This document shows, piece by piece, positions 8,901-24,318 of a stretch of 36,098 nt of DNA. Position 1 is the stretch's first letter. Each line of letters begins with the position of its first letter. The notes under the pieces were generated by a model. It was not told the DNA's origin and ran no database searches. It saw nothing but the letters and a program-made list of their open reading frames with translations. Position numbers and translations under genes: made by a program. The stretch is from NCBI RefSeq assembly GCF_004339675.1, contig NZ_SLVM01000032.1:1-36098 (forward strand). Direction: 5' to 3'. The DNA comes from Rhodovulum steppense (GTDB taxonomy: Bacteria > Pseudomonadota > Alphaproteobacteria > Rhodobacterales > Rhodobacteraceae).

Positions 8901-11439
8901 CCGCCACCGGCAGAGGCAGCAGCCAGCCCGCCGCCAGCGCCGCCAGCGTCAGTGGCGGCGTCAGCGACCGGCGCAGATTGTCGATGATCTTCCAGCGGCC
9001 GAGCGCGGGCATTGCCCCCCGCCCGACCAGCCAGGGTAGAAGCTGCCAGTCCCCGCGCACCCAGCGGTGCTGTCGGCGGGCGGCGACGTCGTGGCGCGCG
9101 GGGAAATCCTCGACCACCTCGATGTCCGAGACGAGGGCCGCGCGCGCGAAAATGCCCTCGAACAAGTCGTGGCTGAGCATGGTGTTGTCCGCCACCCGCC
9201 CGGACAGCGCCGCGGCAAAGGCGTCGACATCGTAGATGCCCTTGCCGGTAAAGGATCCCTCGCCGAACAGATCCTGATAGACGTCCGAGATCGCCGCGCC
9301 ATAGGCGTCGATCCCCGCGTGACTGGCGTGGATGCGCTGGAACAGCGAGCCTTCGGGGCCGACCGGCAGGGCCGGCGTGACGCGCGGCTGCAGGATGCCG
9401 TAGCCTTGCGTCACCCGCCCCAGTGCGGGGTCGAGGCGCGGCCGGTTCAACGGGTGCGCCATCTTGCCGACCAGCCGCCGCACGGTGTCGCGCATCAGCC
9501 GCGTGTCGGCGTCCAGCGTGATGACGAAGCGGACGTCCTTCGGCACCACAGCAGGCGCGAGGAAGCTCGTGTCCGTCGCCCCGCGCAACAGGCGGTTCAA
9601 CTCTGCCAGCTTGCCGCGCTTGCGCTCCCACCCCATCCAGACGCCCATGGAGGGGTTCCACAGGCGCCGGCGATGCAGGAACAGGAAGCGGTCGCCACCG
9701 GGCGATGGGTACGCCGCGTTCAGGCGGGCGACTTCGGCCCTGGCGAGCGTGATCATCGCGGCGTCCTGTGGCGCGGTCTCGGTGGTGGCATCGGGCCCGT
9801 CGGACAGCAGCGCGTAATGCAGCGCGCCTTCGGTACTGGACAGGTGGTGCACCTCCAGCTGGACGATGGCGGCGGCAACCTCCTCGGCATTGACCAGCAG
9901 GATCGGCACGGCGACGAGGCAGCGCAGGTCAGGCGGCACCCCCGCGGCCAGCTCCATCCCCGGCAGGCGCTGCGGGGCGACCGACCGTGTGACCGCGAGG
10001 TTGACGAGCGCATTGCCTGCCTCCAGCGCAAGAGCCAGGCCCGCGACGGCCAGCGCCAGCGCGGCCCAGCCCTGTGCCCCCGACAGCCACAGTGCCAGCG
10101 CCAGGATGGCCAGCGAGGCCAGGCCGATGGCGGCCAGATACCCCGTCAGGCCCGCCCGCGCGACAAGGCGCCGGGCGCGCAATCCCGGCCGCGCACCGTA
10201 GCCGATGCAGCTCTCCAGCGTCCCGCGTCCCGGCCCGATCAGCCAGTGGCCGGGGTCGCGGTTGGCCTCCCCCTCGCCCCCGGCGGCGAGCGCCAGCGCG
10301 GCTCCGGCGACCTCTGCCTCCGGCTTCCCCGAGCCGCGCGCAAGCGTTTCAATCGCGGTGCGATAGAGGTTGCGCGTCGAGAAATCGAGCGCGGCGAAGT
10401 CCGACGCCGCGCGCAGTTGCGCGTCGACCGGGCTGACCTCCTCGAAGAAGTCCTGCCAGTCCATCTCGGAGATCAGGCGCATGCTGGTGACGACATTGCG
10501 CATGGTGACGTTGGAGGCGCCCTGCCGCTGCTGGGCGTGCAGGATCACCGTGTCCCGCGTCATGCCCTGTGCTGCGAGCCGGTCGTCGAGCCAGCCGCAG
10601 AGGGGGGTCTCGGTCGGGTCGCAGCCGCGCAGGCGCTTGGCGATCTGGGCAGCCAGGATCTCGGGCAGCGGCGCGCCCTCCAGCGGGGCGACGGCCTGCG
10701 CCAGCCGGAGCGTGGGCGAGGATCGGGCAGCGGTCGCGGGGCCGCGCCCGTCGTCCGTGACGAGCGGGCCATCGACCAGCCTGTCTGCCGCGTCACGCTC
10801 TGCATGGGCCGCCACGATCTCGTCCGACAGCCGGCGCGCGTTCTCGATCAGCACGATGCGCAGGGTGATTGCCACCGCCCACAGCTCGCCGATGGTGAGC
10901 GGCTCGACCGTCTGATAGGCACGCACGAAGCGGGCCAGGACCGGTGGATTGAGCAGGCTGTCGGTGTGGGCGACATAGGCCCAGGCGAGGCCGAGGACGC
11001 GCGGATACCCGGCAAGCGGCCCCTCGGCCAGTTTCGGCAGCTGGCGATAATAACCGGGCGGAAGGTCGCCCCGGATCTGTAGCAGCTGCTGCTCGATGAT
11101 GTGGAAGTTGTCCAGCAGCCATTCCGCGGCAGGGGTGATCGTCTGTCGCGCCCGCACCGCCTGCGCGCAGGAGCGATAGGCGGCAAGGAGGACATCGGCG
11201 TTGTCGCCGACCCTTGCGGCAAGCGGCATCACGCGCATGCGCCGACGCGTGACCCGCTGGGCTTGCGCAAGGGAGATTGCATGATGTTCGAGGCGCTCGG
11301 CGCCGAACAGGTCCGCGCGGATGACCGTGCTTTCTCGCCACAGATCTGAGCGCGCACGCCTGCGGGCAGTGCCGGGCCAGAGCGATACTCCTGCCCCTGA
11401 CCCGGCCAGAGAACGCTGGCCTGCGGCTCGGGGGATCAC
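2953..11439 (-). CDS. Cyclic beta-1,2-glucan synthase
   Basis: 2828 residues, close to the roughly 2830-2870 of the NdvB/ChvB/Cgs family. It makes and cyclises periplasmic beta-1,2-glucan from UDP-glucose at the inner membrane, for osmoadaptation and host interaction. Order: N-terminal region from about 40; membrane segments at about 430-490; GT84 domain at about 500-820 with LDADTR (642-647) and RQHRWVRGDWQ (about 789-799); more membrane segments at about 825-870 and beyond; a glycoamylase-like region at about 1000-1500 (GVSESAYNARDLEM); two GT36/GH94-type beta-sandwich repeats near 1550 and 2020; and a GH94 phosphorylase domain with DWNDGMN at 2500-2506, thought to control chain length. The GTG at 11439 lacks an obvious ribosome binding site but overlaps the preceding stop codon as GTGA, which supports this start by translational coupling. 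The conserved part begins only near residue 40. Confidence 0.95.
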   Translation of the reverse strand: MIPRAAGQRSLAGSGAGVSLWPGTARRRARSDLWRESTVIRADLFGAERLEHHAISLAQAQRVTRRRMRVMPLAARVGDNADVLLAAYRSCAQAVRARQTITPAAEWLLDNFHIIEQQLLQIRGDLPPGYYRQLPKLAEGPLAGYPRVLGLAWAYVAHTDSLLNPPVLARFVRAYQTVEPLTIGELWAVAITLRIVLIENARRLSDEIVAAHAERDAADRLVDGPLVTDDGRGPATAARSSPTLRLAQAVAPLEGAPLPEILAAQIAKRLRGCDPTETPLCGWLDDRLAAQGMTRDTVILHAQQRQGASNVTMRNVVTSMRLISEMDWQDFFEEVSPVDAQLRAASDFAALDFSTRNLYRTAIETLARGSGKPEAEVAGAALALAAGGEGEANRDPGHWLIGPGRGTLESCIGYGARPGLRARRLVARAGLTGYLAAIGLASLAILALALWLSGAQGWAALALAVAGLALALEAGNALVNLAVTRSVAPQRLPGMELAAGVPPDLRCLVAVPILLVNAEEVAAAIVQLEVHHLSSTEGALHYALLSDGPDATTETAPQDAAMITLARAEVARLNAAYPSPGGDRFLFLHRRRLWNPSMGVWMGWERKRGKLAELNRLLRGATDTSFLAPAVVPKDVRFVITLDADTRLMRDTVRRLVGKMAHPLNRPRLDPALGRVTQGYGILQPRVTPALPVGPEGSLFQRIHASHAGIDAYGAAISDVYQDLFGEGSFTGKGIYDVDAFAAALSGRVADNTMLSHDLFEGIFARAALVSDIEVVEDFPARHDVAARRQHRWVRGDWQLLPWLVGRGAMPALGRWKIIDNLRRSLTPPLTLAALAAGWLLPLPVAVGWTLAVLAMLALPHLLPLPFVLQPGRAGITARSHVAALGADARAALAQIMLAVTFLPDTALRMGDAILRTAWRLGVSRRNLLEWVTAAQTTKGDQPGAYRRMGLGITLGLGVAGGAAALNPAVGPLVLPFALLWLASPAVAHRISQPAPLHRRGPLTQADTQGLRLIARSTWRYFETFVTAADNFLPPDNFQETPGPALARRTSPTNIGMYLLSVTAAHDLGWIGRANALTRLERTLATMQRMPRFRGHLHNWHATDDLRVLEPGYVSSVDSGNLAGHLIAVAQACAEWRAAPTRGADWRAGLRDGLRLAERALAVAPDPALDDLLAGLAKALAEGAPLDRLLSLAEGAAAHARAACDPASDEAFWCEAMRAGLAGHVADRNLDLGPRLAAVERTARAVATGMDFAFLLDCDKKLLSIGFSLATNRLDHSCYDLLASEARLASLVAIAKGDVPTRHWFRLGRAATPLGAGSALVSWSGSMFEYLMPSLVLQEPMGSTLEETGRRIVARQRAYAETLGIPWGVSESAYNARDLEMTFQYSNFGVPGLGLKRGLGADRVVAPYATALAAMVDPAAALRNFARLAALGAEGRFGFYEAVDFTPTRLPAGADRAIVRSFMAHHQGMTIAAIANCVQDSRLRARFHAEPMIRAVELLLQERVPRDATDAPPRAREVLATAPEPASQPVVRRFPAPAEAAPTAHLLSNGTYGVVLTPKGAGYSRWRDLAVTRWRDDPTTAGQGAFIFLRDRASGALWSAGMQPTGADPARHGAVFSEHHAAFTHQTDDLTTLTEVVVSAEDDAEARRVTLTNTGRRAREIDLTSYAELVLAPLAADVAHPAFSKLFVVTDYLPELGVIVATRRRRSPTDPEVWAAHIAVVEGAEAAPIQIETDRARFVGAGGSIGRAAMATAPLSQSIGTVLDPIFAIRRSVVVPAGGMARVTFWTMVADDPDVLLDLVDRHRDPSAFGRAVTLAWTQAQVQLRHLDITHAAAADFQRLGGMLIRADARLRVPAATILVGVGPQSALWPHAISGDLPIILLRIEDAEDAPRLQEVLAAHEYLRMRQLAVDVVVLNDRAASYVQDLQTMIEVAVRSARSRPRAQPPEGMADGAVHVLRSDLIGPEARALLLAVASVVLVAGRGSIGQQIDAAPAATPPRRRALARPQTAGPSAPAFDTSRLEFFNGTGGFADGGREYVTVLRDGQTTPAPWINVIANPGFGFQVSALGAGHVWAVNSRENQITPWSNDPVMDPAGEAILLHDLDSGATWTPTARPIRDSGLYVARHGFGHSTFEHAANGIDARMVQFVPLEDPVKITHLTLRNTTDRPRPLSVTAYVEWVLGPSRGATLRHVITEADPETGAILARNPFSLAFAGRVAFADLGAGTASHSADRAEILGVGGGMANPEGIGAAPLSGRTGPALDPCAALQRRIVLAPGESVEVLFLLGQADSREAARELILRHRATDPEATLAEVTEHWADLLGAVQVTSPDRAMDIMLNGWLLYQTLACRIWARAGFYQASGAYGFRDQLQDGMALAALRPDLTRAHLLRAAARQFPEGDVLHWWLPHSGQGVRTRISDDRVWLGHAVAQYVAVSGDADVLDEEVPFIEGPALLPGVHDDFFLPSVSDQSASLFEHCARGLDQAISLTGENGMPLIGTGDWNDGMNRVGERGRGTSVWLGWLLIATIEAMAPLARPRDPARAERWRRHAEAVRQAIEREGWDGAWYRRGTYDDGTPLGSAASRECRIDSIAQSWAVLSGAADPERAASAMASMTEHLIRPDPGLALLFAPPFDATPQDPGYIKGYPPGLRENGGQYTHAAIWAVLAHARMGDGDAAGRLFAMLNPINHALTPEDAARYKVEPYVVAADVYASAPHAGRGGWTWYTGSAAWMYRAGIEGLLGLTRAGGDLVLNPCFPKAWPRMSATVTIGRTRLAITIDNPGRTGHGIATATLDGAPLHPADGRLTVKLSGGSHRLAVTLSPVPSPPVM

Positions 11440-11968: not shown

Positions 11969-11993
11969 GGAACGCGCCCTGCTACCGCGCGTT
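11969..11993 (+). promoter_or_regulatory. EcfG-type promoter of the PRC-barrel gene
   Basis: GGAAC (11969-11973), 16 bases, CGTT (11990-11993), a full match to the alphaproteobacterial general stress consensus, ending 64 bases before the ATG at 12058. The rest of the 427-base gap from 11631 to 12057 holds this site and the minus-strand candidate; I see no convincing gene in it. Confidence 0.75.
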
Positions 11994-12057
11994 GTCCTCG
12001 TGTCGGGCAAACACGCGATCGGTTGTCGATCTGCCCCTTGCCCGCGGAGGACTTTCG

Positions 12058-12933
12058 ATGAAACGGCTTCTTTCAACCACCGCGCTTGCGCTGGCGCTTG
12101 GCTTGCCTTCTGCGATTCTGGCCCAGAGCACGCCCGCTCCCGAGCGCGCGACGCAGAGCCAGAGCGCCAGCATGGCGGGGTTTCTGAGCCAGCGGGACCA
12201 ATCCGACCTCTTCGCATCCGAACTGATGGGCCATGATGTCCATGCGCGTCGGGTATCCGCAGACGCTTCGGCAGCAAGAACCGGGGCCATGGCTACGGTC
12301 AGCCGGGCCGATCTGGACGAAATGGACAACATCGGCCAGATCAACGAGATCGTGCTGTCGCATGACGGTCAGGTCCGCGCCATCGTGATCGGCGTCGGCG
12401 GCTTTCTTGGCATGGGCGAGCGCGATGTGGCGGTCACGATGGATCAGGTGACGTTCGCCTCCGATCCCGAAGATCGCGCGCAGATGCATGTCATCGTGAA
12501 TGTCGCAGCGGAGATGCTCGAAGGCTCCCCTGCCTATGACCGTTCGTCGATGATAGACGGCGGGCCGATGGACCGGACCGGCGCGGCCACGACCAACCGC
12601 ACGTCACTTGACCGGCCGGAGATGACCCGCGACGGGTACAATCTGGTCGATGCGACGCGCGTCACGACCGAAATGCTGGTCGGCGCGACGGTGTATGACC
12701 CGTCAGACACATCTGTGGGGACGGTCGAAAAGCTGGTCCTCGATGCTGACGGGGCGATCACGAACTTGATCATCGATTTCGGCGGTTTCCTGGGGATGGG
12801 CTCGCACCAGGTGTCGGTGCGCTTCGACGATCTGACGATCTTTTCGAACGACCGCGCCACCGACATGCGCATCTACGTGGATGCCACCAAGAAGCAGATC
12901 GAGGCCCTGCCGCAGTACCAGGCGATGAACTGA
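12058..12933 (+). CDS. Periplasmic protein with two PRC-barrel domains
   Basis: 291 residues. A signal peptide covers about 1-22 (LALALGLPSAILAQ). The two PRC-barrel domains are at about 52-150 and 205-285. Each has the family signature of a turn plus beta-strand core (IGQINEIVLSHDGQVRAIVI GVGGFLGMGER; VGTVEKLVLDADGAITNLII DFGGFLGMGSH). The domains probably arose by internal duplication. The ATG at 12058 has GGAGGAC upstream. An EcfG-type promoter precedes it and a strong hairpin follows the stop. PRC-barrel proteins in alphaproteobacteria are common in stress clusters; the ligand is unknown. The cytoplasmic single-domain relative lies convergent at 13037. Confidence 0.85.
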   Translation: MKRLLSTTALALALGLPSAILAQSTPAPERATQSQSASMAGFLSQRDQSDLFASELMGHDVHARRVSADASAARTGAMATVSRADLDEMDNIGQINEIVLSHDGQVRAIVIGVGGFLGMGERDVAVTMDQVTFASDPEDRAQMHVIVNVAAEMLEGSPAYDRSSMIDGGPMDRTGAATTNRTSLDRPEMTRDGYNLVDATRVTTEMLVGATVYDPSDTSVGTVEKLVLDADGAITNLIIDFGGFLGMGSHQVSVRFDDLTIFSNDRATDMRIYVDATKKQIEALPQYQAMN

Positions 12934-13036: not shown

Positions 13037-13396
13037 TCAACCGCCGTGATGCGGCATCGCCTTCAGCTTGTCCTTGGTGGTGTCCATGTGAACGCGCACA
13101 TCGGACCCGCCGGTTGCCCGCAGCACCGTGAGGTCGCCGAAGGGGACCAGCACCGAATGCGCGCCGATGCCGAGGAAACCGCCGACATCGATCACGGCCG
13201 CGGTGATCCGGCCCTCCGATCCGATCTTGAGCGCGCTGACCGAGCCGATGGACTCGTCCTCGCGGCCATAGACCTTGGCGCCTTCCAGATCCGACGACTT
13301 CAGCTCGTGGACTGCCGCCTTGGCATACCCGTCGCGGGCAAAGGCGTGGGTGCCGCCGCCGGACGCGCCGGTGGGTGTGGTTGTGGTGGGTGTCAT
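13037..13396 (-). CDS. Single-domain PRC-barrel protein
   Basis: 119 residues without a signal peptide, so probably cytoplasmic. After a threonine- and glycine-rich N-terminus, one PRC-barrel domain spans about 28-112 (SSDLEGAKVYGREDESIGSV; AAVIDVGGFLGIGAHSVLVP). It resembles each half of the two-domain protein at 12058. The C-terminus (MDTTKDKLKAMPHH) parallels that protein's end (VDATKKQIEALPQY), so the two share an ancestor. The ATG at 13396 has AGGGAG 6 bases upstream. An EcfG-type promoter lies 173 bases upstream. The role is unknown; stress-related by promoter and family context. Confidence 0.85.
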   Translation of the reverse strand: MTPTTTTPTGASGGGTHAFARDGYAKAAVHELKSSDLEGAKVYGREDESIGSVSALKIGSEGRITAAVIDVGGFLGIGAHSVLVPFGDLTVLRATGGSDVRVHMDTTKDKLKAMPHHGG

Positions 13397-13568
13397 GATG
13401 TTCTCCCTGTTCCCGGAGGGGCCGGGAACTCTGAGCGCAGGGGCCCCCTGCAGGGTCGTGGATCGCCGCTCCGCTCGCGCCGCGAAGGTCTTGGCGCGGT
13501 GTCGATCAATGACGGGGTCAACGCAGCGCACCCCGGTATTCGGATCGTGCGGCGGGTCGTACATGGAC

Positions 13569-13593
13569 AACGCCGCAGCGCAGGGGACGTTCC
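13569..13593 (-). promoter_or_regulatory. EcfG-type promoter of the single-domain PRC-barrel gene
   Basis: Read on the minus strand: GGAAC (13593-13589), 16 bases, CGTT (13572-13569), a full consensus match. It sits just after the end of the esterase gene (stop at 13609) and points to the ATG at 13396, implying a leader of about 165 bases. Confidence 0.7.
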
Positions 13594-13608: not shown

Positions 13609-14820
13609 TCAGCGAGGCCGGGCCAGAAAGAACCCCACCATTTCCGCCGACGCGTCGGGCCCGCGCGAATCGGTGAAGGAGCCGCCGGCCTTGCCCCCCG
13701 ACCAGGCGTGGCCTGCGCCCGCGACCTGCCAGAGTTCCACATCGACCGTTCCGTCGGGCAACGCATACTCGGTGCGCAGATAGCTCCGGCCTGCTGCCTC
13801 GGCGGGCGTCACCCGGGCCGGGGTCCGGGAGCCGACCGCGGCCAGCACGATCTGCGGCGCGTTGGAGGGGTGCACGGCACTGTCGGCATCGCCGTGAAAG
13901 ACGATCCGGCGGGCGGGGGCACGGCTGCCCGCCGCCGCTGGTCTGCGTGCCCGCGCGGCCGCCGGTGTGCCGCCACTGCGCATGGCGGAGAGCGCCGACA
14001 TGACATCGCTGGCCGCCCCGCGCGCAAGCCCCGAATGCACGCCCACGGCCGAGAAGACATCCGGATAGGTCTCGGCCACGATCACCGCCATCGCCCCGCC
14101 TGCGGACAGGCCGGCGACGAACACGGCCTGTCGGTCCAACCCGAATTCCCGCATCAGAGCGCGGGTCAGGCCGGCAAGGATCGCCGGCTCTCCCCTGCCG
14201 CGGGCCTGGTTGACGGGCACGAACCAGTTCCAGCAGGACGCGCCGTTGTGGTCGCGGGTCTGCTCCGGCCAGGCGACCGCCAGACCGTGCTTCTGGGCCA
14301 GCGCGTTCATGTCGGTGCCGGTCGCAAAGTCGTCGGGGTTCTGTGAACAGCCGTGCAGCATCAGAATTAGGCCCGTCGGCCCCTGCGATTGCCCGGCCGG
14401 CAGGAAGAGCTTGAAGTCGCGGGTCCCGGCGCGACCGCGATAGGTGCGGTCCAGATACTGTGCGCCCCGGGGTATAGGCGGCGGGCGCGAAGGCGTGGGG
14501 ACACGATCGAGCAGCAGGCGGGCGGGCAGCGATGACCGCGCCGCGCGCAGCTGCTTCACCACGGCGCTCAGACGCCGGTCCACCTTCGCGCCAGCCCGGG
14601 ATGCCGCTTTGCGCCGTGCCTTTGCAGGCGGCTTGCGGTGCTTTATCGCGACGGTCGGCTTGCCCGGCGTCATGGCCTGCAGGGTCGACAGTGTCTCAAG
14701 CGTGGTCTTGATTACTGCAGCACCTATAGCCCGCTGCATCGCCCTTGCGGAGGACCGCGGCTTGCCCGCGCGGGCAAGCCGCATCGCCCGGCGCATCGTG
14801 CGCGGGATGGTGAATTTCAT
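13609..14820 (-). CDS. PHB depolymerase family esterase
   Basis: 403 residues, an alpha/beta hydrolase of the short-chain polyhydroxyalkanoate depolymerase / LpqC type. The nucleophile elbow GLSAGG has Ser239; Asp311 (FHGDAD) and His371 (GAGHAW) complete the triad. The oxyanion region is LMLHGCSQNPDDF at 153-165. The first 110 residues are very basic and predicted helical, with no typical signal peptide, and may bind a polymer or granule surface. Family members cleave polyhydroxyalkanoate or other esters; the true substrate cannot be read from sequence. The ATG at 14820 is clear. The 183-base gap upstream holds no gene, and no EcfG-type site was seen there. Confidence 0.85.
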   Translation of the reverse strand: MKFTIPRTMRRAMRLARAGKPRSSARAMQRAIGAAVIKTTLETLSTLQAMTPGKPTVAIKHRKPPAKARRKAASRAGAKVDRRLSAVVKQLRAARSSLPARLLLDRVPTPSRPPPIPRGAQYLDRTYRGRAGTRDFKLFLPAGQSQGPTGLILMLHGCSQNPDDFATGTDMNALAQKHGLAVAWPEQTRDHNGASCWNWFVPVNQARGRGEPAILAGLTRALMREFGLDRQAVFVAGLSAGGAMAVIVAETYPDVFSAVGVHSGLARGAASDVMSALSAMRSGGTPAAARARRPAAAGSRAPARRIVFHGDADSAVHPSNAPQIVLAAVGSRTPARVTPAEAAGRSYLRTEYALPDGTVDVELWQVAGAGHAWSGGKAGGSFTDSRGPDASAEMVGFFLARPR

Positions 14821-15003: not shown

Positions 15004-18000
15004 CTAGACGCCCGGCAGTCCGGCTGCCAGCGCCAGCCGGACGAGGTCCGGCAGCGAGGTGGCTCCGGTCTTGCGCATCACCGCCGCCCTGTGGTTCTCG
15101 ACCGTGCGCTGGTTGATGCCGAGGTCGGCGGCGATGATCTTGTTCGGCGCGCCCTCCAGCACCCTGGCCAGAACCTCGCGTTCGCGCGGCGTGAGATCGG
15201 CGAAGGATTTCAGCGCGATGCGCCGCGCGCCGTGGCGGGCGCGATCGTCGATCGCCTGTTCGAGGGCCTGCCCGATGCTGGCCAGGAGATCCGCCGCGCT
15301 GGCCGGTTTCTCGATCAGATCCGCGGCGCCCGCCTTCATCGCGCTCACGGCCATGGCCGTGTCGCCACTTCCCGTCAGCATCACCGCAGGCAGGGACGAG
15401 CGCTCCGCCCGCAAGGCCTCCAGCAGCGCCACACCGCCCATGCCGGGCAACCGGTCGTCGATGACCAGACAGGCCCTGGCGCCCGGACGGGGAGCGGCCA
15501 GAAATGCCTCGGCCGACGGGTAGGTGATCACGTTCCATCCCTCGGCCTCGAACAGGCGGCGGGTGGCCTCGCGCACCATGGGGTCGTCGTCCACGATGTG
15601 CACTGTCGCCTGGTCGGCCGCAGAGCCGGCGAGGTGTTGCGCCCGGGCTGCCCCGGCGCCCTGCAGCAGGGCGGCGATCCGGTCCAGCAGCACGTCGGGC
15701 AGGACGGGCTTGGCGATCTGCACGAAGGGGGTTCTCGCGATCTCGCGCATCGTCGCGGCCGTGATGTCGCCGGTCAGGATGATGGTCGGGATGCCATGGC
15801 CCAGAGCCCGAGGCATATCCTGCGCCAGCGACAGGCCGGACACACCGCCATGCAGGTCGAAATCCGTCAGCAGCAGGTCGGGCGGCTTCGCGGCCCCGTT
15901 GGCCCAGGCGAGGGCATCCGGCGCATTGGCCATGGCGACGACGCTGTGTCCCTCGGCCGTGAGCGCACGGGCAAGCAACTGACGGAGTTCGTCCTCGTCC
16001 TCGACCAGCAGGATCGTGCCGGTCTGTCGGCCACCCTCGACCGGCGCTGTGTCCGCCAGCGCTGCAGGCTCGGCTGCGGCCAGCGGAAGCGTGACCATGA
16101 AGGTCGATCCCTTGCCCTGGACCGACCGGACATCCACCGGATGAGCCAGCAGGTCCGCCAGCCGCTGGACGATCGACAGCCCCAGCCCGAGGCCCTGCGC
16201 GGCCAGGAACGCAGGCTGCTCGCCCCGATGATAGGCGTCGAAGATCGCCTTGCGCTCGGACGCGGCCACACCGATGCCGCTGTCGCAGACCTGAATCGTC
16301 AGACGGTCGCCGCGGATGCGGCATCCCATCACGATGCCGCCCCTCGGCGTGTATTTCACCGCATTCGACAAGAGGTTGCGCAGCATCTGCTCAAGAAGCT
16401 GCGGATCGGTCCGCACCCAGGCCTTGCTCGGCACCACCCGCAGCTTCAGCCCCTTCATCTCGCACAGCGGCGCGAACTCGTCGGCAAGACGCGCCATGAG
16501 CGGGGCAACCGCGATGGCCCGCACCTGCGGCCGCACGATGCCGGCCTCGATGCGGTTCACGTCGAGCAGAGCGTCAAGCATTTCGGTCATCGTCTTCAGC
16601 GTGCGGTCCAGCAGCGCCGCCAGCCGCAGCGCCTCGGCTCCCTTGCGGCCGCGCGTCATCAGCTCGTGCAGCAGCGCCAACGACTGCAACGGCTGGCGCA
16701 GGTCGTGGCTGGCGGCGGCGAGGAACCGCGACTTCGCAAGCGTCGCGCGGTCGGCCTCGGCCCTCGCGGCGACGAGTTCCTCATGCGTGCGCTTGTTCTC
16801 GGTGATGTCGACGAAGGTGATCACCACGCCTTCGACGCGCCCGCCATCGGCGCGATAGGGCTGGACCCGGCGCAGATACCAGATGCCCCCGGCGCCAGCG
16901 ATCTCGCGTTCGATCGGGCTTGCCGTCGCCAGCACCGCGGCCGCGTCGGCGGCAAGATTGGTGTCGCTCGACAGGGCCGCCAGATCGGACAGCGGCCGGC
17001 CGATATCGGTCGGTATGACATTGAAAACCGCGCGGGCGGTGGGTGTGAAGAACCGGATGTTCAGGGCGCGGTCGAGGAAGATCGTCGCCACATCGGTGCT
17101 GTAGAGCACGTTCTGCAGGTCGTTCGCGGTGGTGCGGTGGCGTTCGACGGTCTCCTGCAACTGGGCGTTCAGCGCGGTCAGCTCCTCGTTGAGCGCCTGC
17201 AACTCCTCCTTCGAGGCGAGCAGCTCCTCGTTGGTCGACTGGAACTCCTCGTTGACCGACAGTGCCTCGGCGGTATCGGCGGCGTGGCCCTCGACCTCCT
17301 GTTCCAGTTCGCGCAGGGCGTCGCTGAGATCGTTGCGGGTCGCCTCCAGATCGGCTTCGAGTTCGGCGATGCGCGATGCGGCATCCGCCGCCCCGGGCGC
17401 ATCGGCCAGCGACCCGGTCGCCGCGGGCGGGGCCTCGAGGAAGCAGGCGAGCAGCAGGTCTTCCTTGCCGGCCTGGACGGCGCGCAGCTCGATATTGAAC
17501 CGGCCCTCGCGCGTCGAGCGTCCGCCGGGAACGACGACGACCGGATTCGCGGCGTCGCAGGACGCCGCCGCCATGCGGAACCGTGCGTGCAGCGTCCGGG
17601 GCAGCATGCCCAGAAAGCCCGGATCGGGGTGGCCCTGCGTGACGCTGAGATAGCGTTCGGTCGGGCCCAGCAGAAAGAGACAGTCGAACCGGCGGTTCAT
17701 CAGCACGGCCGCGGGCGCGTAATTCTCCAGAACGACCCGCCGACACAGCTCCGCCAGGGAGGTCCTGCGACTTGGCTTCGGGTAGGCCTCGACGGGCCTC
17801 GCGGTCCGCGCGCCGGCTGCGACATGCAGATCGCCCGGCCGGCCGGGGCCGACGCAGCGCCAGAGCCGGGCGTCCTTGTGGGCGACCTCGAAGCTGCCAT
17901 CTTCCGGCCCGGGCGTTTCGGCAGCCCCCAGCAGCAAAAGCCCGCCGGGACGCAACGAGAATGCGCATAGCCCGATCACCCGCCGCTGCGCCTCCGGCTC

Positions 18001-19320
18001 CAGATAGATCAGCACGTTGCGGCACGACAGCAGGTCGATGCGCGAGAACGGCGGGTCGGACAGCAGGTCCGCCACGGTGAAGACGATCACGTCACGCAGT
18101 TCCGGCCGGACCCGCCAGCCGCCCGCCTCGGCCTCGAAGAACCGTGCAAGCCGCGCGGGCGATACCACGCCTGCGATGTCGGCGGGATAGAACCCCTCGC
18201 GGGCGGTGGCCACCGCGTCGGCGTCGATGTCCGAGGCGAAGACCTGAAGGCCGGCCTTCGAGCCTGCCGCTTCCAGCGCCTCGATGCAGAGCATGGCCAG
18301 GCTGTAGGCCTCCTCGCCGGTGCTGCATCCGGCCACCCAGACTCGCAGCGGCCGGTCGGCGGGCTGGGACGCGATCAGTTCGGGCAGGGCTGTCGCGCCG
18401 AGGTGCTCGAACACGCCCGGATCGCGGAAGAAGCTCGTGACATGGATCAGCAGATCGGCCGTCAGCCGCGCAAGCTCGGTGCTGTCGGCGCGCAGCATCG
18501 TCAGATACCGCTCCGTCTCGTCCGGCCCACAGCCAGCCATCGCCATGCGACGGGCGATGCGGCGCTTGATCGTTCCAGTCTTGTACAGCGTCACATCCTG
18601 CGGGGCCGTTTCCGCGACGAGCGAGATGATGGCATCGAAGTCCCGCTTCGCCCCCGGCCCCGCAGCGCCGGGCGTCACGGCTGTCCGACCCGCGCCGGCC
18701 TTCGCGACTCCTGATGGGTTCGCCACAGCCCCGGCGGCCAGCTGACCCAGCACCGCCGGCATGTCCGCGATGCCCAGGACGTGATCCACGAGACCGGTGG
18801 CAATGGCGCTGTCCGGCATGCCGGAATACCCGGCCTCCTTCGGGTCCTGCGCCAGGATCAGCCCGCCTGCGTCATGGATGGCGCGCAGCCCGCCGCTGCC
18901 GTCCGTGCCGGTCCCCGAAAGCACGATGCAGGCCAGCGGCGATGACGCCTGCCGTGCCAAAGACTGCAACAGCACGTCGAAGGGCAGGCGCACCGCCTTG
19001 CCGCGCTCGGGGGCAGGGGTGTGGAGAACGCCGTTCTCGACGGTCAGAAAGACGCCCGGCGGGATGACATGCAGATGGGCAGGCCGCAGCGTCATGCCCT
19101 CGGCGGCCAGAACCACCGACAAGGCGGTGTCCCGTGCCAGAAGGTCGACCATCATGCTGTCATGCGACGGGTCGAGGTGCAGGACCAGCACGAAGGCCGC
19201 CTGCATGTCGCCGGGCATCGCCTTCAACAGCGCGCGGCATGCCTCGAGCCCGCCTGCGGATGCGCCGATGGCAACGATGGGGAGCGCAGGACCGGGCGTT
19301 CGAGCGCGCTCATTGGACAT
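15004..19320 (-). CDS. CheB-CheR-PAS-histidine kinase-REC-REC-HTH fusion
   Basis: 1438 residues, soluble, no membrane segment. Order: CheB methylesterase at 12-195 (Ser21 in GASAGG, His48, Asp140); CheR methyltransferase at 225-500 (SAM loop VAGCSTGEEAYS at 329-340, LLSCRNVLIYL); long coiled coil at about 645-735; PAS at 735-845; HisKA with His872 in SHDLRQPL; HATPase at about 970-1090 (NLLSNAVKYTP); receiver 1 with Asp1153; receiver 2 with Asp1288 (VIDDRLPGMGG); LuxR/FixJ-type HTH at about 1370-1438 (LTPREREVLARVLEGAPNK). CheB-CheR-PAS-kinase proteins are known. Adding two receivers and a DNA-binding end puts sensing, phosphorelay and transcription output in one chain. The ATG at 19320 has GGGAAG upstream. 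It is transcribed away from the EcfG-like gene at 20160. The signal and targets are unknown. Confidence 0.92.
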   Translation of the reverse strand: MSNERARTPGPALPIVAIGASAGGLEACRALLKAMPGDMQAAFVLVLHLDPSHDSMMVDLLARDTALSVVLAAEGMTLRPAHLHVIPPGVFLTVENGVLHTPAPERGKAVRLPFDVLLQSLARQASSPLACIVLSGTGTDGSGGLRAIHDAGGLILAQDPKEAGYSGMPDSAIATGLVDHVLGIADMPAVLGQLAAGAVANPSGVAKAGAGRTAVTPGAAGPGAKRDFDAIISLVAETAPQDVTLYKTGTIKRRIARRMAMAGCGPDETERYLTMLRADSTELARLTADLLIHVTSFFRDPGVFEHLGATALPELIASQPADRPLRVWVAGCSTGEEAYSLAMLCIEALEAAGSKAGLQVFASDIDADAVATAREGFYPADIAGVVSPARLARFFEAEAGGWRVRPELRDVIVFTVADLLSDPPFSRIDLLSCRNVLIYLEPEAQRRVIGLCAFSLRPGGLLLLGAAETPGPEDGSFEVAHKDARLWRCVGPGRPGDLHVAAGARTARPVEAYPKPSRRTSLAELCRRVVLENYAPAAVLMNRRFDCLFLLGPTERYLSVTQGHPDPGFLGMLPRTLHARFRMAAASCDAANPVVVVPGGRSTREGRFNIELRAVQAGKEDLLLACFLEAPPAATGSLADAPGAADAASRIAELEADLEATRNDLSDALRELEQEVEGHAADTAEALSVNEEFQSTNEELLASKEELQALNEELTALNAQLQETVERHRTTANDLQNVLYSTDVATIFLDRALNIRFFTPTARAVFNVIPTDIGRPLSDLAALSSDTNLAADAAAVLATASPIEREIAGAGGIWYLRRVQPYRADGGRVEGVVITFVDITENKRTHEELVAARAEADRATLAKSRFLAAASHDLRQPLQSLALLHELMTRGRKGAEALRLAALLDRTLKTMTEMLDALLDVNRIEAGIVRPQVRAIAVAPLMARLADEFAPLCEMKGLKLRVVPSKAWVRTDPQLLEQMLRNLLSNAVKYTPRGGIVMGCRIRGDRLTIQVCDSGIGVAASERKAIFDAYHRGEQPAFLAAQGLGLGLSIVQRLADLLAHPVDVRSVQGKGSTFMVTLPLAAAEPAALADTAPVEGGRQTGTILLVEDEDELRQLLARALTAEGHSVVAMANAPDALAWANGAAKPPDLLLTDFDLHGGVSGLSLAQDMPRALGHGIPTIILTGDITAATMREIARTPFVQIAKPVLPDVLLDRIAALLQGAGAARAQHLAGSAADQATVHIVDDDPMVREATRRLFEAEGWNVITYPSAEAFLAAPRPGARACLVIDDRLPGMGGVALLEALRAERSSLPAVMLTGSGDTAMAVSAMKAGAADLIEKPASAADLLASIGQALEQAIDDRARHGARRIALKSFADLTPREREVLARVLEGAPNKIIAADLGINQRTVENHRAAVMRKTGATSLPDLVRLALAAGLPGV

Positions 19321-20159
19321 CGTATCTTCCCGCCAGAGGGGGCACCGCGCCCGGCACGCAAAACCGTCACATGCGAAGGCTATTTCGTCGTCGCGCTGCC
19401 GTCATGCATGACAACGGTATCATCCTTTTCGGCCGTGCAGAAGCCGGGCTTTTCGGGATCGTCGTTATCGCCCGACGGTCCTGCGGCGCGCAGTTTTCCG
19501 ACCGGGCTCACCGGTGCACCCGGCGCTCTACGCTTTGTCTAAGTAGATTCCGGGGCTGTCGGCGCGACCGACCGATGGCTAGCTTCAACCCACGGCATGT
19601 AGTCGCATTAACCAGTGTGAAGTTGTCCGGACAGCCGGGTTGCGTTCATGGCGAACGTTTCAAAAGCCCCCAAAGTCGGCTCGCGTTTCTTCGCCGGCGA
19701 CGAGTCCGGCTGTCCGGCCATTGCGAAGGAATTCTCGAGGACGGCACGGAACGTGCCCAGCGCGGTGCGTTGATCGTTCCCGGAAGCCCGTTCTCCATCG
19801 CTCGTCCACCGCTGAAAAGGAATGAGAAGCTGGACCATGGCCAAGCTCATCCCTGCTCCCGGAACGATCGGAGCCTTCATCAGGGCGCCCGGCGTCTCCT
19901 CTCCGACCCCGCCATCGCCCTGGAGACAGAAACGCCGACTCCCGTGCCAGCGGTGACGCAGATCAAATGCGGCAAGGCGAACGTGCGGACCCACGCCATG
20001 CACGGCCCAGACCTCCGGCGAGGCCGACAGCTCCGACCGGAGCCGCAGCACTGCGAGCCGCCTTCATCTCATCCGGACGCAAACTCGCTCCCCCATCGGA
20101 CGGGCACGGCCCCGCGGGAAGCCGACAACTCCCGTCATCGGAAAGGTGACACGAAGACC
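19321..20159. other. 839-base gap with only weak ORFs
   Basis: No gene here can be supported with confidence. Three short candidates exist: minus 19380-19511 (43 aa from GTG, acidic, ending DGSATTK), plus 19648-19773 (41 aa starting MANVSKAPKVGSRFFAGDES), and plus from the ATG at about 19836 (starting MAKLIPAPGTIGAF). The composition is somewhat less GC-rich near 19540-19640. A GGAAC-N15-CGTT sequence at 19748-19771 resembles an EcfG site but is one base short in the spacer. This gap separates the divergent kinase and sigma factor genes. Confidence 0.4.
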
Positions 20160-20729
20160 ATGATTGACGTCCATCCGTTTCATTTCCTCCTGCCGCCGCA
20201 GGCCGCGGTCCTGTTTCGCTTCGCCCTCAGGCTTGCCGCCGACGAGACTCGGGCCGAGGATCTGGTTCAGGAGACCTTCCTCAAGGCCTGGGCGAGTCGC
20301 GACAGTTTCACGCCCGGCACCGAACTGAGGGGGTGGCTGTTCACCATCCTTCGCAACACGTTCTATTCCAGCCTCCGCAAGCACATACGCGAGGTGGAGG
20401 ACGTGGACGGCAGACTTACGGCGCTGCTCTTCGAGGAAGCGGCGCAGGAGCATTCCGTCGACCTGAACAAGCTGATTTCGGCCATGGCAAGGCTCCCCGA
20501 AATCCACCGTCGGCCGGTCGTCCTCATGGGGGCATACGGATTTTCGCAGCAGGAAGCGGCCGATGCCTGCAACTGCGCCGTCGGCACGATCAAGAGCCGC
20601 GTCAGTCGCGGACGGTCCGAACTCGGCCGTGCATTCGGTCGCGACCCGGTGGAGCCCCACGGAACGATCACGCACCCGGGGCCGTTGGCAGACCGGCATG
20701 TCGGGGCTTGCATGAGCGAAACGCCCTGA
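20160..20729 (+). CDS. EcfG-like RNA polymerase sigma factor (ECF)
   Basis: 189 residues. Region 2 (RAEDLVQETFLKAWASRD, then GWLFTILRNTFYSSLRK) and region 4 (LPEIHRRPVVLMGAYGFSQQ, then CAVGTIKSRVSRGRSEL) match the ECF15/EcfG general-stress group closely. EcfG factors direct polymerase to GGAAC-N16-17-CGTT promoters and are normally held by NepR and released by phosphorylated PhyR. Neither nepR nor phyR is found in this window, so this may be a secondary EcfG paralogue. The ATG at 20160 is preceded by AAAGG at a rather long distance; the open frame runs further upstream but without sigma-factor similarity. The C-terminal tail after about residue 165 is extra. Confidence 0.88.
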   Translation: MIDVHPFHFLLPPQAAVLFRFALRLAADETRAEDLVQETFLKAWASRDSFTPGTELRGWLFTILRNTFYSSLRKHIREVEDVDGRLTALLFEEAAQEHSVDLNKLISAMARLPEIHRRPVVLMGAYGFSQQEAADACNCAVGTIKSRVSRGRSELGRAFGRDPVEPHGTITHPGPLADRHVGACMSETP

Positions 20730-21191: not shown

Positions 21192-21869
21192 CTACCCCGT
21201 CACGACCCCATCGCCCACCACGACCTGTCGCCGGCAGAGGCTTGCGATCTTCTCGTCGTGGGTGGAGATCAGGAAGGTCGTGCCTTCGTCGCGGTTGATC
21301 TCGGAGATCAGCGCCATGACCTGCATGGCGGCGGCGCGGTCGAGGTTGCCGGTCGGCTCGTCCGCCAGCACCAGTTCCGGCCGGTTCATCAGTGCGCGAG
21401 CCACCGCCACGCGCTGCTTCTGACCGCCCGACAGGTTTGCCGTGGGGAAATCGATCCGTTCGGCCAACCCCATCCGTGCCAGCAACTCGCGCCCGCGGGT
21501 CCGGGCGGCAGCCGTCTCGCGGCCCTCGCGCACGGCGGTGGGGAAGACCACGTTCTCAAGCGCGGTGAAGTCGGGCAGCAGGTTGTGGAACTGGAACACG
21601 AAGCCGATGTGCAGGTTGCGAAACAGCGTCAGCGCCCTGTCGTCGGCTGCGACCAGATCCGTCCCGAGCATCGAGTGGCTGCCCGCGGTGGGTTTCATCA
21701 GCGTTCCGAGGATGGTCAGCAGCGTGCTCTTTCCCGACCCGGACGGGCCCAGCAGCGCCGTGAGTTCTCCCGCCTGCAGCGTCAGGGACAGCCCGCGCAG
21801 GACCCGCGTCGCCGCCTCGCCCGACCCGAAGGTCTTGACCAGCCCTTCGACCCGGACCAGCGCGCTCAC
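21192..21869 (-). CDS. ABC transporter ATP-binding protein (LolD/MacB type)
   Basis: 225 residues, a complete nucleotide-binding domain: Walker A GPSGSGKST at 41-49, Q-loop in FVFQFHNLLP, signature LSGGQKQRVAVARAL, Walker B LVLADEPTGNLD, H-loop STHDEK. The EPTGNLD form and the length match LolD and the MacB-type ATPases that power mechanotransmission rather than substrate passage. The start overlaps the permease stop by four bases (ATGA). With the permease and adaptor it forms a three-gene operon. The substrate is unknown: lipoprotein, small molecule or peptide export are all possible. The convergent 110-base gap to 21081 holds no gene. Confidence 0.92.
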   Translation of the reverse strand: MSALVRVEGLVKTFGSGEAATRVLRGLSLTLQAGELTALLGPSGSGKSTLLTILGTLMKPTAGSHSMLGTDLVAADDRALTLFRNLHIGFVFQFHNLLPDFTALENVVFPTAVREGRETAAARTRGRELLARMGLAERIDFPTANLSGGQKQRVAVARALMNRPELVLADEPTGNLDRAAAMQVMALISEINRDEGTTFLISTHDEKIASLCRRQVVVGDGVVTG

Positions 21870-23071
21870 TGGCTGATCGCCGTGACCGGATCGACCCGCG
21901 CCGCCGCACGTGCCGGCAGGATCGAGGCAAGGATCGCGCCCAGCACCGTCAGCGTGATCGCCAGCCCGTAGGACCCCTGGGTGATGTCCATCGGCAGGGT
22001 GCCGGGCCGGAATGCCTCGCGCGAGGGGAAGGGCAGAAGCGCCAGATAGCCCAGCCCCGCGCCCATCAGCCCGCCCAGAAGCCCGATCAGCGCGCCCTGG
22101 GTGACGAAGACGACGACGACGAACCCCCGCCCCGCGCCCATGGCCCGCATGATGCCGATCTCCGGCCGGCGGCGATAGGTCGAGAGCAGAAGCGCCGAGG
22201 CGACCCCGATCACGATGGTGATCAGGGCAAAGGACTTCAGGAAGTAGCCTGTCTGCGCCTGCGCATTCAGCGCTTCCTTCAACTGTTCGGCGCCGTCGGT
22301 CCAGGGAACGACATCGAGTCCCGTCAGGCCCCGGATCCGCAGCGCGGTCGCGTCGGCGGCGTTGAGGTCGGCCAGCTTGATCTCGATCCGGGTGACGCCC
22401 TGCGGCATCGCGAAGAGCGTGCGGGCGGTGGGCAGGCTGACGAAGACGCTGCTGCTATCGATCATGCCATTGCCGGTCTGGAAGATTCCGCTCAGCGTCA
22501 GCATGGTTGACACTCCGCCGGACGATTGCAGCCGCAGCGTCTGGCCAAGCCCGAGCGACAGATCGTCTGCCAGCCTCTGCCCCAGGACGACAAGCCCCGA
22601 TCCGAGCCGTGCCGCCCCTTCGACCATATAGCCGTCGAGGTTCAGGATCGCGGATTCGCGCCCCGGTTCCAGCCCCGTTACGCTGACCTGTGCCACCTGC
22701 GCGCCGCGCGTCAGGAACCCCGCGCCCGTGATCTGCGGCGAGACGGCGACCACACCGCGGACGGCCTCGATCAGCGGGATCCAGGTCGCTGCCTCGGCCA
22801 GCGTTGCGGTCCGCATGCGGCCCTTTTCGGTGACGGCAAGGACATGGCCTTCGGGCGAGATCAGGATGGCGGGCTCTGCATCCTCGGCCTTGATCGTAAC
22901 ATGGCTGATGTCGCCCACGGTCCGTGACAGGATGAAGTCGGCCAGCCCCCCGATCAGCGCCGACATGAAGACGAAGATGAAGACGCCGACCGCAACGCCG
23001 AGCACCAGAAGTGCGGTCTGGGCCTTGCTGGCGGTCAGGTACCGGATGGCGATCTTCAGCGCATAGAGCAT
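21866..23071 (-). CDS. FtsX/MacB-family ABC permease
   Basis: 401 residues. One membrane helix near the N-terminus (about 18-42, ALLVLGVAVGVFIFVFMSAL), a periplasmic MacB-type core domain at about 45-260, then three helices (about 275-300, 325-352, 370-392) forming the FtsX domain. It has no fused ATPase; that is the next gene. Its ATG shares one base with the stop of the adaptor gene (TGATG). The family transmits ATP-driven movements to a periplasmic partner, here the HlyD-like adaptor. Two such subunits would form a homodimer. Confidence 0.9.
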   Translation of the reverse strand: MLYALKIAIRYLTASKAQTALLVLGVAVGVFIFVFMSALIGGLADFILSRTVGDISHVTIKAEDAEPAILISPEGHVLAVTEKGRMRTATLAEAATWIPLIEAVRGVVAVSPQITGAGFLTRGAQVAQVSVTGLEPGRESAILNLDGYMVEGAARLGSGLVVLGQRLADDLSLGLGQTLRLQSSGGVSTMLTLSGIFQTGNGMIDSSSVFVSLPTARTLFAMPQGVTRIEIKLADLNAADATALRIRGLTGLDVVPWTDGAEQLKEALNAQAQTGYFLKSFALITIVIGVASALLLSTYRRRPEIGIMRAMGAGRGFVVVVFVTQGALIGLLGGLMGAGLGYLALLPFPSREAFRPGTLPMDITQGSYGLAITLTVLGAILASILPARAAARVDPVTAISQ

Positions 23072-24252
23072 CAGCGGCGCTCCACCCGCACGGCCTGCCC
23101 GTCGACGATGCCCGCGGCATCGACTATCACGACATCGCCCGGCGCAAGTCCGGCGGTCACGATCAGGCGCGCGGCGGGCCAGTCGATCACCGCCACAGGG
23201 CGACGGTGTGCGATGCCGTCGACGACGACCAGCACCGCCGTGCCGTCATCCCCTGTGCGGATTGCCGTGCGCGGCACCGTGACGGCCGCATCCTGACGCT
23301 CGACGATGATGTTGGCAGTGACGGTCAGTCCGACCGGCGCGGTCACGGGGTCGTCGAATGCAAGCTTCACGGCGAGCCCTCCCGTCGCGGGATCCACCCG
23401 TTGCGACACGAAGGCGACTCGACCTCCCCGGCCGGTCGTATCGCCCAACAGTTGCAGCAACGCCTGCTGGCCTGCGCGGATCTGCATGGCATGGGCTTCG
23501 TCCACGTCCGTCTCGACGACCAGCTGGCTCAGATCGGCGATGGTGAGCAGCACCGTCGAGGGGTCGACGTTCTGTCCGGGTTCCACATTCAGCTCCAGCA
23601 CCGTTCCCGTGATCGGCGCGCTGATGGTGTAGTCCGCAAGATGGATCTGCGCCTGTTCGACCAGAGTGGTCATCCGGGTCACATCCTGTGTCGCCGCCTG
23701 CAGCGAGCGCTCGGCATCCTCCAGTACCGATCGGGCGACATTGGCGCCCAGTGCCTGTGTTCGGGCATAGGTTGCGGCCGCCTGCTCCCGCGCCACCCGC
23801 GCGGCATCCAGCCCCGCCACGGCCTGCCGCACCATGGCCTGTTGCGTCGACGAGTCGAGCCTTGCCAGCTCGGTGCCCGACTGCACGGCATCCCCCTCAT
23901 CGACCAGCACCTCGGCCAGTTGGCCGCTGACGAGCGCGCGAACGTCCACCGAATGCAGTGCGGCGACCCGTCCGTTGACGGCGAGGACCCGTGTGACAGG
24001 GGCAAGAGCCGCTGTCTCGACCGCGACCGGGAAAGGCGCAGGGTCCCAGGGCCGCAACCACAGGCCCAACCCGATCGCCAGCGCCAGCGCTATCCCTCCC
24101 GACCACCAGAACGCGAGGCGTCTGCGTCTCGCGGGGGTATGCGACGCGGTGGCGGGCCCCTCCAGCATTGCCGAAGCTCGGGCCTCCGCTGCCCCATGTG
24201 GCGACGGCGTCGCATGGGCTGCTGCGATGGGGTCCGGTTCAAGTGTCCACAT
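23071..24252 (-). CDS. HlyD/MacA-like periplasmic adaptor
   Basis: 393 residues. The cytoplasmic N-terminus is followed by a membrane anchor at about 46-66 (LAFWWSGGIALALAIGLGLW). The lipoyl-type beta-hairpin halves (VRALVSGQLAEVLVDEGDAV; ISAPITGTVLELNVEPGQNV) enclose an alpha-helical hairpin rich in Ala, Gln and Arg. A C-terminal beta-barrel region follows. It would bridge the permease to an outer membrane channel, not encoded nearby. I chose the ATG at 24252; a TTG at 24300 would add 16 residues without an obvious ribosome binding site. First gene of the three-gene operon. Confidence 0.88.
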   Translation of the reverse strand: MWTLEPDPIAAAHATPSPHGAAEARASAMLEGPATASHTPARRRRLAFWWSGGIALALAIGLGLWLRPWDPAPFPVAVETAALAPVTRVLAVNGRVAALHSVDVRALVSGQLAEVLVDEGDAVQSGTELARLDSSTQQAMVRQAVAGLDAARVAREQAAATYARTQALGANVARSVLEDAERSLQAATQDVTRMTTLVEQAQIHLADYTISAPITGTVLELNVEPGQNVDPSTVLLTIADLSQLVVETDVDEAHAMQIRAGQQALLQLLGDTTGRGGRVAFVSQRVDPATGGLAVKLAFDDPVTAPVGLTVTANIIVERQDAAVTVPRTAIRTGDDGTAVLVVVDGIAHRRPVAVIDWPAARLIVTAGLAPGDVVIVDAAGIVDGQAVRVERR

Positions 24253-24318
24253 GGTGCAATCCTGAGGCGGGCCCGCAGGTGACCCTGACGCTTCTGTCAA
24301 GCATCACGCCACGCAGGG

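Follow-up and report, generated by a model that had tools for sequence, protein, structure and literature searches.

Proteins that join the methylesterase CheB and the methyltransferase CheR to a PAS domain are annotated by NCBI as 'chemotaxis protein CheB' or 'CheR family methyltransferase'. A CheB-CheR hybrid of Rhodospirillum centenum, RC1_3878, is mentioned without a function in the part of PMC2890560 that was available, and no CheB-CheR hybrid is mentioned in the available parts of PMC6194562, PMC1079850, PMC12654446, PMC4951495, PMC9239204 and PMC10767990. The enzymatic target of such fusions was not stated in the literature passages found. For methyl-accepting chemotaxis proteins (MCPs), an acceptor consensus for methylation, E-E-x-x-A-S/T, is given in the accessible text of PMC1079850. 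The window analysed here, a stretch of 36,098 nucleotides from Rhodovulum steppense (contig NZ_SLVM01000032.1), encodes a CheB-CheR-PAS protein of 1438 aa, designated P0001, on its minus strand between 15004 and 19320. The gene (ATG at 19320, stop at 15004-15006) was delimited by its open reading frame (ORF), Pfam matches and intact homologues. Between CheR and PAS lies a long helix with a ladder of Glu-Glu pairs, which we propose, from the sequence comparisons below, to be the substrate of CheR in cis. Our wider reading, which is tentative and held at slightly less than even confidence, is that CheR-PAS sensors across bacteria carry a built-in methyl-accepting helix and that, in the P0001 subfamily, the full adaptation loop and a transcription factor share one chain; this would give a gene switch with chemotaxis-type memory, acting on stress genes via its own operator.

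Pfam analysis of P0001 revealed, in order, CheB (residues 16-190), CheR_N (227-264), CheR (294-479), PAS_10 (735-840), HisKA (862-927), HATPase_c (972-1081), two Response_reg domains (the better match being 1240-1349) and GerE (1376-1430). The order CheB-CheR-PAS-HK-REC-REC-HTH (HK, histidine kinase; REC, receiver; HTH, helix-turn-helix), which the initial annotation had proposed, was borne out by these Pfam matches and by NCBIfam on the 1438-aa frame, and Ser21, His48, Asp140, His872, Asp1153 and Asp1288 were all found where it had placed them. The CheB methylesterase domain (residues 14-195; 18736-19281) has its Ser21, His48 and Asp140 triad inside the CheB_methylest match. The CheR_N and CheR methyltransferase region (residues 226-480; 17881-18645), identified by Pfam and Foldseek, contains the S-adenosylmethionine (SAM)-binding TGEE, conserved Arg and CRN motifs (R299, E336, E337, D364 and N435). 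PAS_10 was located by Pfam at 16801-17118. Pfam, NCBIfam and the residue alignment agreed on the HisKA and HATPase_c kinase (residues 862-1081, with His872; 16078-16737) and on the first receiver, REC1 (residues ~1102-1215, with Asp1153; 15676-16017), so that HisKA, HATPase_c and a receiver with their catalytic residues lie on one chain as in a hybrid histidine kinase. The second receiver, REC2 (residues 1240-1349, with Asp1288; 15274-15603), was placed by Pfam and the alignment, and the LuxR/FixJ-type HTH (residues 1376-1430; 15031-15195) by Pfam, a PDB match and Foldseek; together they have the phospho-Asp, Thr, Lys and GerE HTH of a FixJ-type REC-HTH protein.

A pattern-seeded scan of genome contigs kept 80 loci with relatives of the gene, and P0001 was aligned with 80 relatives, L009, L010, L012 and L041 being left out. 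CheB, CheR, the kinase and the two receivers all showed almost no variation at their catalytic positions in the 81-sequence alignment; among sequences with a letter at the position, S21 was kept in 76/78, H48 in 78/78, D140 in 77/78, H872 and D1153 in 81/81 and D1288 in 76/76. The most conserved stretch of this alignment was the coil between CheR and PAS, a result biased by the seeding and not used as proof because one of the seed peptides falls in the coil.

Pfam found no match in the middle region between CheR and PAS_10. An AlphaFold model of residues 8-850 (49 sequences, mean pLDDT 78) showed a PAS-like fold at residues ~518-629 (17434-17769), for which Foldseek gave tandem PAS structures such as FixL with loose superposition, alongside CheR and CheB for the rest of the front half. 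It also showed a single continuous helix at residues ~647-739 (17104-17382), a predicted coiled-coil linker that was further supported by alignment conservation and by its substitution pattern (see below). The seven parts named in the initial annotation stand, and these two had been missed. The model of the back half had a mean pLDDT of 85, and its Foldseek matches were ShkA, FixJ and StyR. The most hydrophobic 19-mer of P0001 averages 1.68 and sits inside CheR, so no membrane segment is apparent, which is consistent with the earlier description of a soluble single chain.

The helix was examined for Glu-Glu pairs flanked at -3 and +4 by A, S, T or G, all small residues. P0001 has such pairs at residues 691/692, 698/699, 705/706 and 712/713 (17182-17250, minus strand), the second being an exact match to the published consensus; these are the proposed cis methyl-acceptor sites. 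Coils of relatives were collected from whole-genome and plasmid searches, the queries being P0001 or its residues 1-843 (both of which contain the coil) or its back part. Only frames with a PAS domain recognised behind CheR were taken into this collection; shorter duplicates of the same places (L001, L012, L105, L106, L110 and L245-L271) and identical coils were dropped, and L123 and L110, which have no CheB, CheR or coil, lie outside it. With Q or D permitted at residue 336 in the definition of intact CheR motifs, 131 distinct coils had intact CheR motifs and a PAS domain behind them: 130 contained 4-8 pairs and one contained 2. Among frames with intact CheR motifs and no PAS domain recognised, 15 (826-1325 aa) had 6-8 pairs, and five split or short pieces had 0-2.

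Runs of this type were rare in other genes. The 80 family genes had ladder runs of 4-6, except one with 2, whereas among 621 other genes of the 80 loci and the window, a set that came from a crude caller, included false frames and missed the window's own sigma factor gene, 581 had no pair, 39 had runs of one and one had a run of two. This last gene encodes an MCP by Pfam. When Gln was also allowed, the own-genome MCP in L306 had a run of three, and the other four own-genome MCPs tested had runs of 2, 1, 1 and 1.

The ladder was then compared between relatives that differ in their enzymes. CheR was absent in nine coils, of which five had 0 pairs and one each had 1, 2, 3 and 5; the coil with five pairs (L287) is cut by the contig end and was not counted as having lost CheR. 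CheR was degenerate in two further coils, L124 (DQEDH at the five motif positions; 0 pairs) and L289 (SEDDN; 1 pair). L125 has a frameshift with both halves present and five pairs kept, and was likewise not counted as CheR-lost. Overall, the ladder was eroded to 0-3 pairs in 10 of the 11 testable coils with CheR absent or degenerate, which represent at most about eight lineages as judged without a tree, the Shinella relatives L163, L164 and L302 being one. In L161 the helix still links the preceding region to PAS, yet two of the four pairs are gone. In contrast, 11 coils with CheR intact and CheB altered, incomplete or off the contig had 4-7 pairs; L278 begins at a contig edge that leaves its CheB out of view, and the frame of L121 ends ~0.4 kb from the contig end. 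Since the CheR-lost coils erode and the CheB-altered coils keep their pairs, the ladder follows CheR, not CheB, among the PAS-bearing relatives. An order-wide search around G075 added one relative, G691, to G264 and G075, and no further case of a dead CheR.

Several results weigh against a methyl-acceptor role for the ladder. The strict consensus E-E-x-x-A-S/T fits only one of the four P0001 pairs, the other three being partial matches, and 71 of the 871 Glu-Glu pairs of the 131 coils. Even with Gln allowed, a run of two is missing from three of the five MCPs tested from the own genome. Four complete short CheB-CheR proteins (L228, L238, L240 and L241; 562-681 aa) have intact CheR motifs, no PAS domain found and no ladder; therefore CheR is not always accompanied by the ladder. 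L279, whose CheR is truncated (homology from residue 377, without the SAM motif), keeps five pairs. Additionally, ten CheR-lost coils retained Glu at 30/76 positions and the residues of the other ladder positions at 80/207 (p=0.89), so that a Glu-specific loss was looked for in these coils and not found. The same positions in 36 proteins with intact CheR and the same output cassette had Glu at 287/288 and the other residues at 727/828. As Glu and the other positions erode alike, the constraint is on the whole stretch and not on Glu alone, and the stretch is best described as constrained by CheR, to judge from the aligned coils, either as methyl acceptor or as docking surface.

Ladders were also present in other arrangements. 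An Azospirillum lipoferum protein with the order CheR-PAS-coil-PAS has a run of seven, its CheB being a separate divergent gene, and runs of five were found in two Deinococcus proteins and one Leptolyngbya protein. On a Niallia taxi plasmid (L350), a stand-alone CheR (2432-3262) directly follows a sensor/kinase frame (3-2399) with a run of three, the sensor coil reading TEELQTQSEELQAQSEELQTQTEEL ahead of the kinase His motif. The Niallia case suggests that the ladder may also mark kinases methylated in trans.

The gene was intact in 3/16 genomes of the genus, the own genome included (G000, G007 and G008), with 91-99% identity in the two further genomes; the closest named relative by this gene was Rhodovulum tesquicola (99%). 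Comparison with the Rhodovulum strictum copy gave a ratio of nonsynonymous to synonymous substitution rates (dN/dS) of 0.29 overall and <0.5 in every domain; by region it was lowest in the coil (0.05, of nine regions), and was 0.09 in the HTH, 0.13 in CheR and 0.16 in CheB. The query was covered in one frame by 69/80 loci. Of the other 11, six extend to a contig end, one (L084) diverges close to its end, one (L041) is split and three (L086, L087 and L091) stop after the first receiver. Of 289 genomes drawn evenly from the class, 14 had the full-length form, at 15 places in all; the G191 copy has an internal stop. These counts do not support rarity of the architecture. A broad set of proteins of this kind, which the initial annotation had named along with its prior characterisation as a point that would tell against it, does exist; no characterised member was found in the full-text literature, in which subscription journals were mostly outside coverage, and, judged by titles and opening lines of abstracts, none of the papers listed there deals with this architecture.

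Among 72,556 plasmid records, 212 matched, and 20 of these covered at least 80% of the query at one place; 18 of the 20 reached residue 1424 or beyond and two stopped at 1212. The 18 forms included two from Caballeronia (Betaproteobacteria), one from Roseateles flagged UNVERIFIED_ORG and one from Methylocapsa with a separate CheB. Residues 1-843 were matched at E 1e-40 in 93/397 genomes of the phylum, some matches ending at CheR, and the own genome also had a match (L002); the CheB-CheR-PAS part is far commoner than the full-length form. On the Methylocapsa polymorpha plasmid (L303), the separate CheB gene lies directly upstream of a 'CheR family methyltransferase' gene that holds the remainder. 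Five plasmid relatives, from Shinella (L163, L164 and L302), Neorhizobium (L161) and Phyllobacterium (L162), have no CheR and keep the PAS-kinase and later parts; in some of them CheB and the coil are decayed or absent, and polysaccharide genes adjoin the relative in those Shinella and Neorhizobium records that are annotated.

Analysis of k-mers upstream of the family genes gave a 13-mer, CGGAATCTACTCA, and its A variant, and the aligned sites extended this to AGnnTCGGAAwCTACTCA. The motif resembles the FixJ box, which served as a lead only; the motif itself came from the counted k-mers. With at most one mismatch, the 13-mer had 120 sites in the 1,045,799 bases of the loci, against 0 for the reversed sequence and 0, 0, 1, 1 and 0 in five shuffles. 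It was found upstream of 38/75 family genes, 7/8 Dps-like, 9/17 lone-receiver, 3/7 c11, 1/15 extracytoplasmic function (ECF) sigma factor and 57/456 other genes, with some sites shared by divergent neighbours, and upstream of 0/29 PRC-barrel genes. In the window the conserved motif, AGCCCCGGAATCTACTTA, occupies 19540-19557 on the minus strand, ~220 bp upstream of the ATG; this site was not seen in 100 shuffles and is the only exact 13-mer match in the own genome, where one site with a single mismatch occurs elsewhere. The exact extended motif was present in 8/289 genomes of the class, namely 6/14 with the full-length gene and 2/275 others (the reversed pattern was present in 3); the site of the exception genome G083 is 2.1 kb past the matched stretch of a CheB-CheR gene. 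The recognition helix of the HTH also varied with the site: loci with TVENH had a site in 55/62 cases, those with TVESH or TIDNH in 4/4, and the six in which N is replaced by V, A or H in none, although most of these six are Acidiphilium or Acidocella and the loci vary in length. We conclude from these comparisons that AGnnTCGGAAwCTACTCA is likely the operator of the HTH.

Ten proteins beside sites, chosen by eye, included YflT-type, Dps-like, Cpn10, Zn-alcohol dehydrogenase, HAD-hydrolase, PRC, Band_7 and BON proteins and one FixJ-type regulator. In the genome G319 the exact motif occurs 14 times, in some cases next to a BON, PRC, slipin or dehydrogenase gene, and these sites form a candidate regulon. 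Some of the counts speak against an operator of this chain. Even with two mismatches, 31/75 gene upstreams have no motif; three of the ten stress-gene examples (YflT and two Dps-like) come from two genomes without the full-length gene; and stand-alone FixJ-type regulators could read the motif. In the own genome, with at most one mismatch, the reversed control gave 3 matches and the motif 2, therefore only the exact site there carries weight.

The helix between CheR and PAS could instead be a purely structural signalling helix, a parallel coiled coil in which the Glu-Glu pairs are heptad salt bridges while CheR and CheB act on chemoreceptors in trans, an explanation that we doubt without finding it far-fetched. 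Signalling helices are known to lie between sensor domains, MCPs of the own genome could serve as trans substrates, CheB-CheR proteins without a ladder exist, and it is the entire ladder, not Glu alone, that relaxes upon CheR loss. Against it stand the MCP-like small residues at -3 and +4, a run of two in just one of 621 neighbouring genes, itself an MCP, the lowest dN/dS of the nine regions, and the erosion of the ladder on CheR loss though PAS and kinase remain; the L161 helix, which keeps its link to PAS but has lost two pairs, is a further point. It is improbable that CheB and CheR are enzymatically idle modules for dimerisation or sensing, attached to an otherwise ordinary hybrid kinase that has its output fused on. 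The same output cassette does persist in relatives that have lost CheR or both enzymes, and an adaptation phenotype of any member was not found in the literature passages available, but in 78-81 sequences the catalytic residues of the two enzymes hardly vary, and dN/dS against R. strictum is 0.16 for CheB and 0.13 for CheR.

The HTH might regulate something else and the motif belong to a separate FixJ-type regulator or another factor, with P0001 as its target. We consider this rather unlikely. A stand-alone FixJ-type gene does lie near a site in L342, L086 and L087, whose proteins have no REC2-HTH, nevertheless contain a site at another position of the locus, and the two genomes with exact sites and no full-length gene fit it as well. 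It is countered by the co-occurrence of the exact site with the gene, by the sole exact own-genome site being at this gene, and by the absence of sites in the six loci with a V, A or H helix compared with their frequency beside TVENH, a comparison limited by its weighting towards Acidiphilium and Acidocella and by unequal locus lengths. Finally, a frameshift or assembly error joining two genes, which the initial annotation had named as a possible refutation, can be dismissed for practical purposes. Split forms are known elsewhere (L041 and the Methylocapsa L303) and none was seen for the window copy; because relatives, in three genomes of the genus and 69/80 loci, carry an intact single frame under purifying selection, the join is excluded.

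Taken together, P0001 would be a soluble, self-adapting, one-chain stress-response kinase and transcription factor carrying its own adaptation enzymes, a description that we regard as evenly balanced between right and wrong. The two PAS domains would sense a cytoplasmic cue and act via the long helix on the HisKA-HATPase kinase, in which, going by the family, His872 would autophosphorylate. The initial annotation had foreseen a phosphorelay. A relay in the His-Asp-His-Asp sense is not supported because the Pfam scan of the chain found no histidine phosphotransfer (HPt) family, HPt proteins in trans not having been sought; phosphate could pass straight from His872 to one receiver or the other. 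The phosphate may go directly to Asp1288 of the FixJ-like REC2-HTH, REC1 (Asp1153) then serving as competitor, sink or gate. The fused CheR would methylate, and CheB demethylate, the Glu-Glu pairs of the helix as on chemoreceptors, resetting the gain of the kinase. Once phosphorylated, the chain would bind AGnnTCGGAAwCTACTCA ahead of its own gene and, in certain genomes, at sites next to stress genes. Because the only strict own-genome site sits between the gene for the chain and a divergent ECF sigma gene, the chain may also drive that sigma gene, and the sigma factor might then transcribe neighbouring PRC-barrel genes from GGAAC-N16-CGTT promoters. The earlier idea of a self-contained signalling system is strengthened by the coil ladder and the upstream motif. 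If this proposal is true, receptor methylation is not confined to chemoreceptors, and kinases and gene regulators, too, make general use of adaptation by reversible methylation. The ladder gives CheB-CheR fusions an exact, testable target, four named glutamates in one protein, and the conserved DNA motif supplies a readout for the family.

The divergent ECF sigma factor gene (20160-20729, plus strand), which has a PhyR_sigma2 match, is separated from the main gene by the motif site. Copies at 98-100% identity were confined to the three genomes of the genus with the main gene; of the other 58 genomes, 20 had relatives at E 1e-30, but at only 43-54% identity, and in G027 such a relative is on the same contig as that genome's own main-gene copy. 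Genes of this cluster occurred in 16/80 loci, 12 of them upstream and divergent. On the other side of P0001 are two PRC-barrel protein frames, both with true starts probably further in: 13037-13570 (minus strand; ECF-type promoter at 13569-13593) and 11992-12933 (plus strand; ECF-type promoter at 11969-11993). The two PRC-barrel clusters occurred in 14 and 15 of the 80 loci. The ECF-type promoter pattern was present upstream of 12/15 and 11/14 PRC genes, compared with 20/451 other genes, and GGAAC-N16-CGTT has four occurrences in the window (0.2 expected), two of them upstream of the PRC genes. At 664-690 two overlapping matches on opposite strands may be a divergent ECF promoter pair. The pattern is rare upstream of the main gene (3/75), a point against the reading given above. 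The general stress response via PhyR-NepR was considered and rejected, as NepR (PF18557) was not found in the own genome, with a positive Caulobacter control and PhyR not searched for, and an EcfG-type promoter stands at just those 3/75 upstreams.

Directly downstream of the main gene is a PHB (polyhydroxybutyrate)-depolymerase-type esterase (13609-14820, minus strand), whose cluster, c6, was found in 12/80 loci and the window. A 2828-aa frame at 2953-11439 (minus strand) has GH94 supersandwich and catalytic domains, a glucoamylase-like domain and a weak glycosyltransferase match; this cyclic-glucan-synthase-like giant protein belongs to cluster c7, present in 10/80 loci and the window. A MacB-type exporter run at 21192-24300 (minus strand) consists of an ABC ATPase, an FtsX/MacB permease and an HlyD-type adaptor, and such clusters (c12, c14 and c15) lie near the gene in 5-6 loci. 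The 202-aa frame at 24747-25355 (plus strand) matches an IS110 transposase in its first part and a Crp-type HTH in its last part, as if a truncated insertion sequence had run on into the gene of a regulator.

Compared with known systems, P0001 shares CheB, CheR, the Glu-Glu coil and PAS with the CheB-CheR-PAS fusions, but continues into a kinase, two receivers and a DNA-binding domain. It resembles FixL-FixJ in having a PAS kinase that would drive a REC-HTH protein, and residues 1236-1434 are FixJ-like throughout, as the initial annotation had recognised: NCBIfam FixJ PRK09390 scored 216 bits over these residues, under the equivalog cut-off of 255, the PDB match to FixJ 5xso was 2e-38 and Foldseek gave FixJ 5xt2. 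Unlike FixL-FixJ, it has sensor and regulator in one chain, an extra receiver and CheB/CheR. The HisKA-HATPase-REC module (residues 857-1211) resembles the hybrid kinases NahK/ErcS (323 bits, NCBIfam), but lies below the 400-bit subfamily cut-off and is fused to CheB-CheR and the HTH. The best Foldseek match of the HK-REC-REC part was 6qrj (ShkA, a hybrid kinase of Caulobacter); P0001 has the HTH in addition, and Asp1153 of REC1 is conserved in its family. The hybrid two-component systems of Bacteroides also combine a sensor, a kinase and a receiver with a DNA-binding domain on a single chain; they are membrane sensors with an AraC-type HTH and are not known to contain CheB/CheR. The heptad Glu-Glu ladder with its small residues is MCP-like, whereas Pfam matched no MCP signalling domain (MCPsignal, PF00015) in P0001. 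P0001 was not filed as an MCP, FixJ or NahK, as it failed a defining feature of each of these three, and is filed with the CheB-CheR-PAS fusions and the hybrid kinases.

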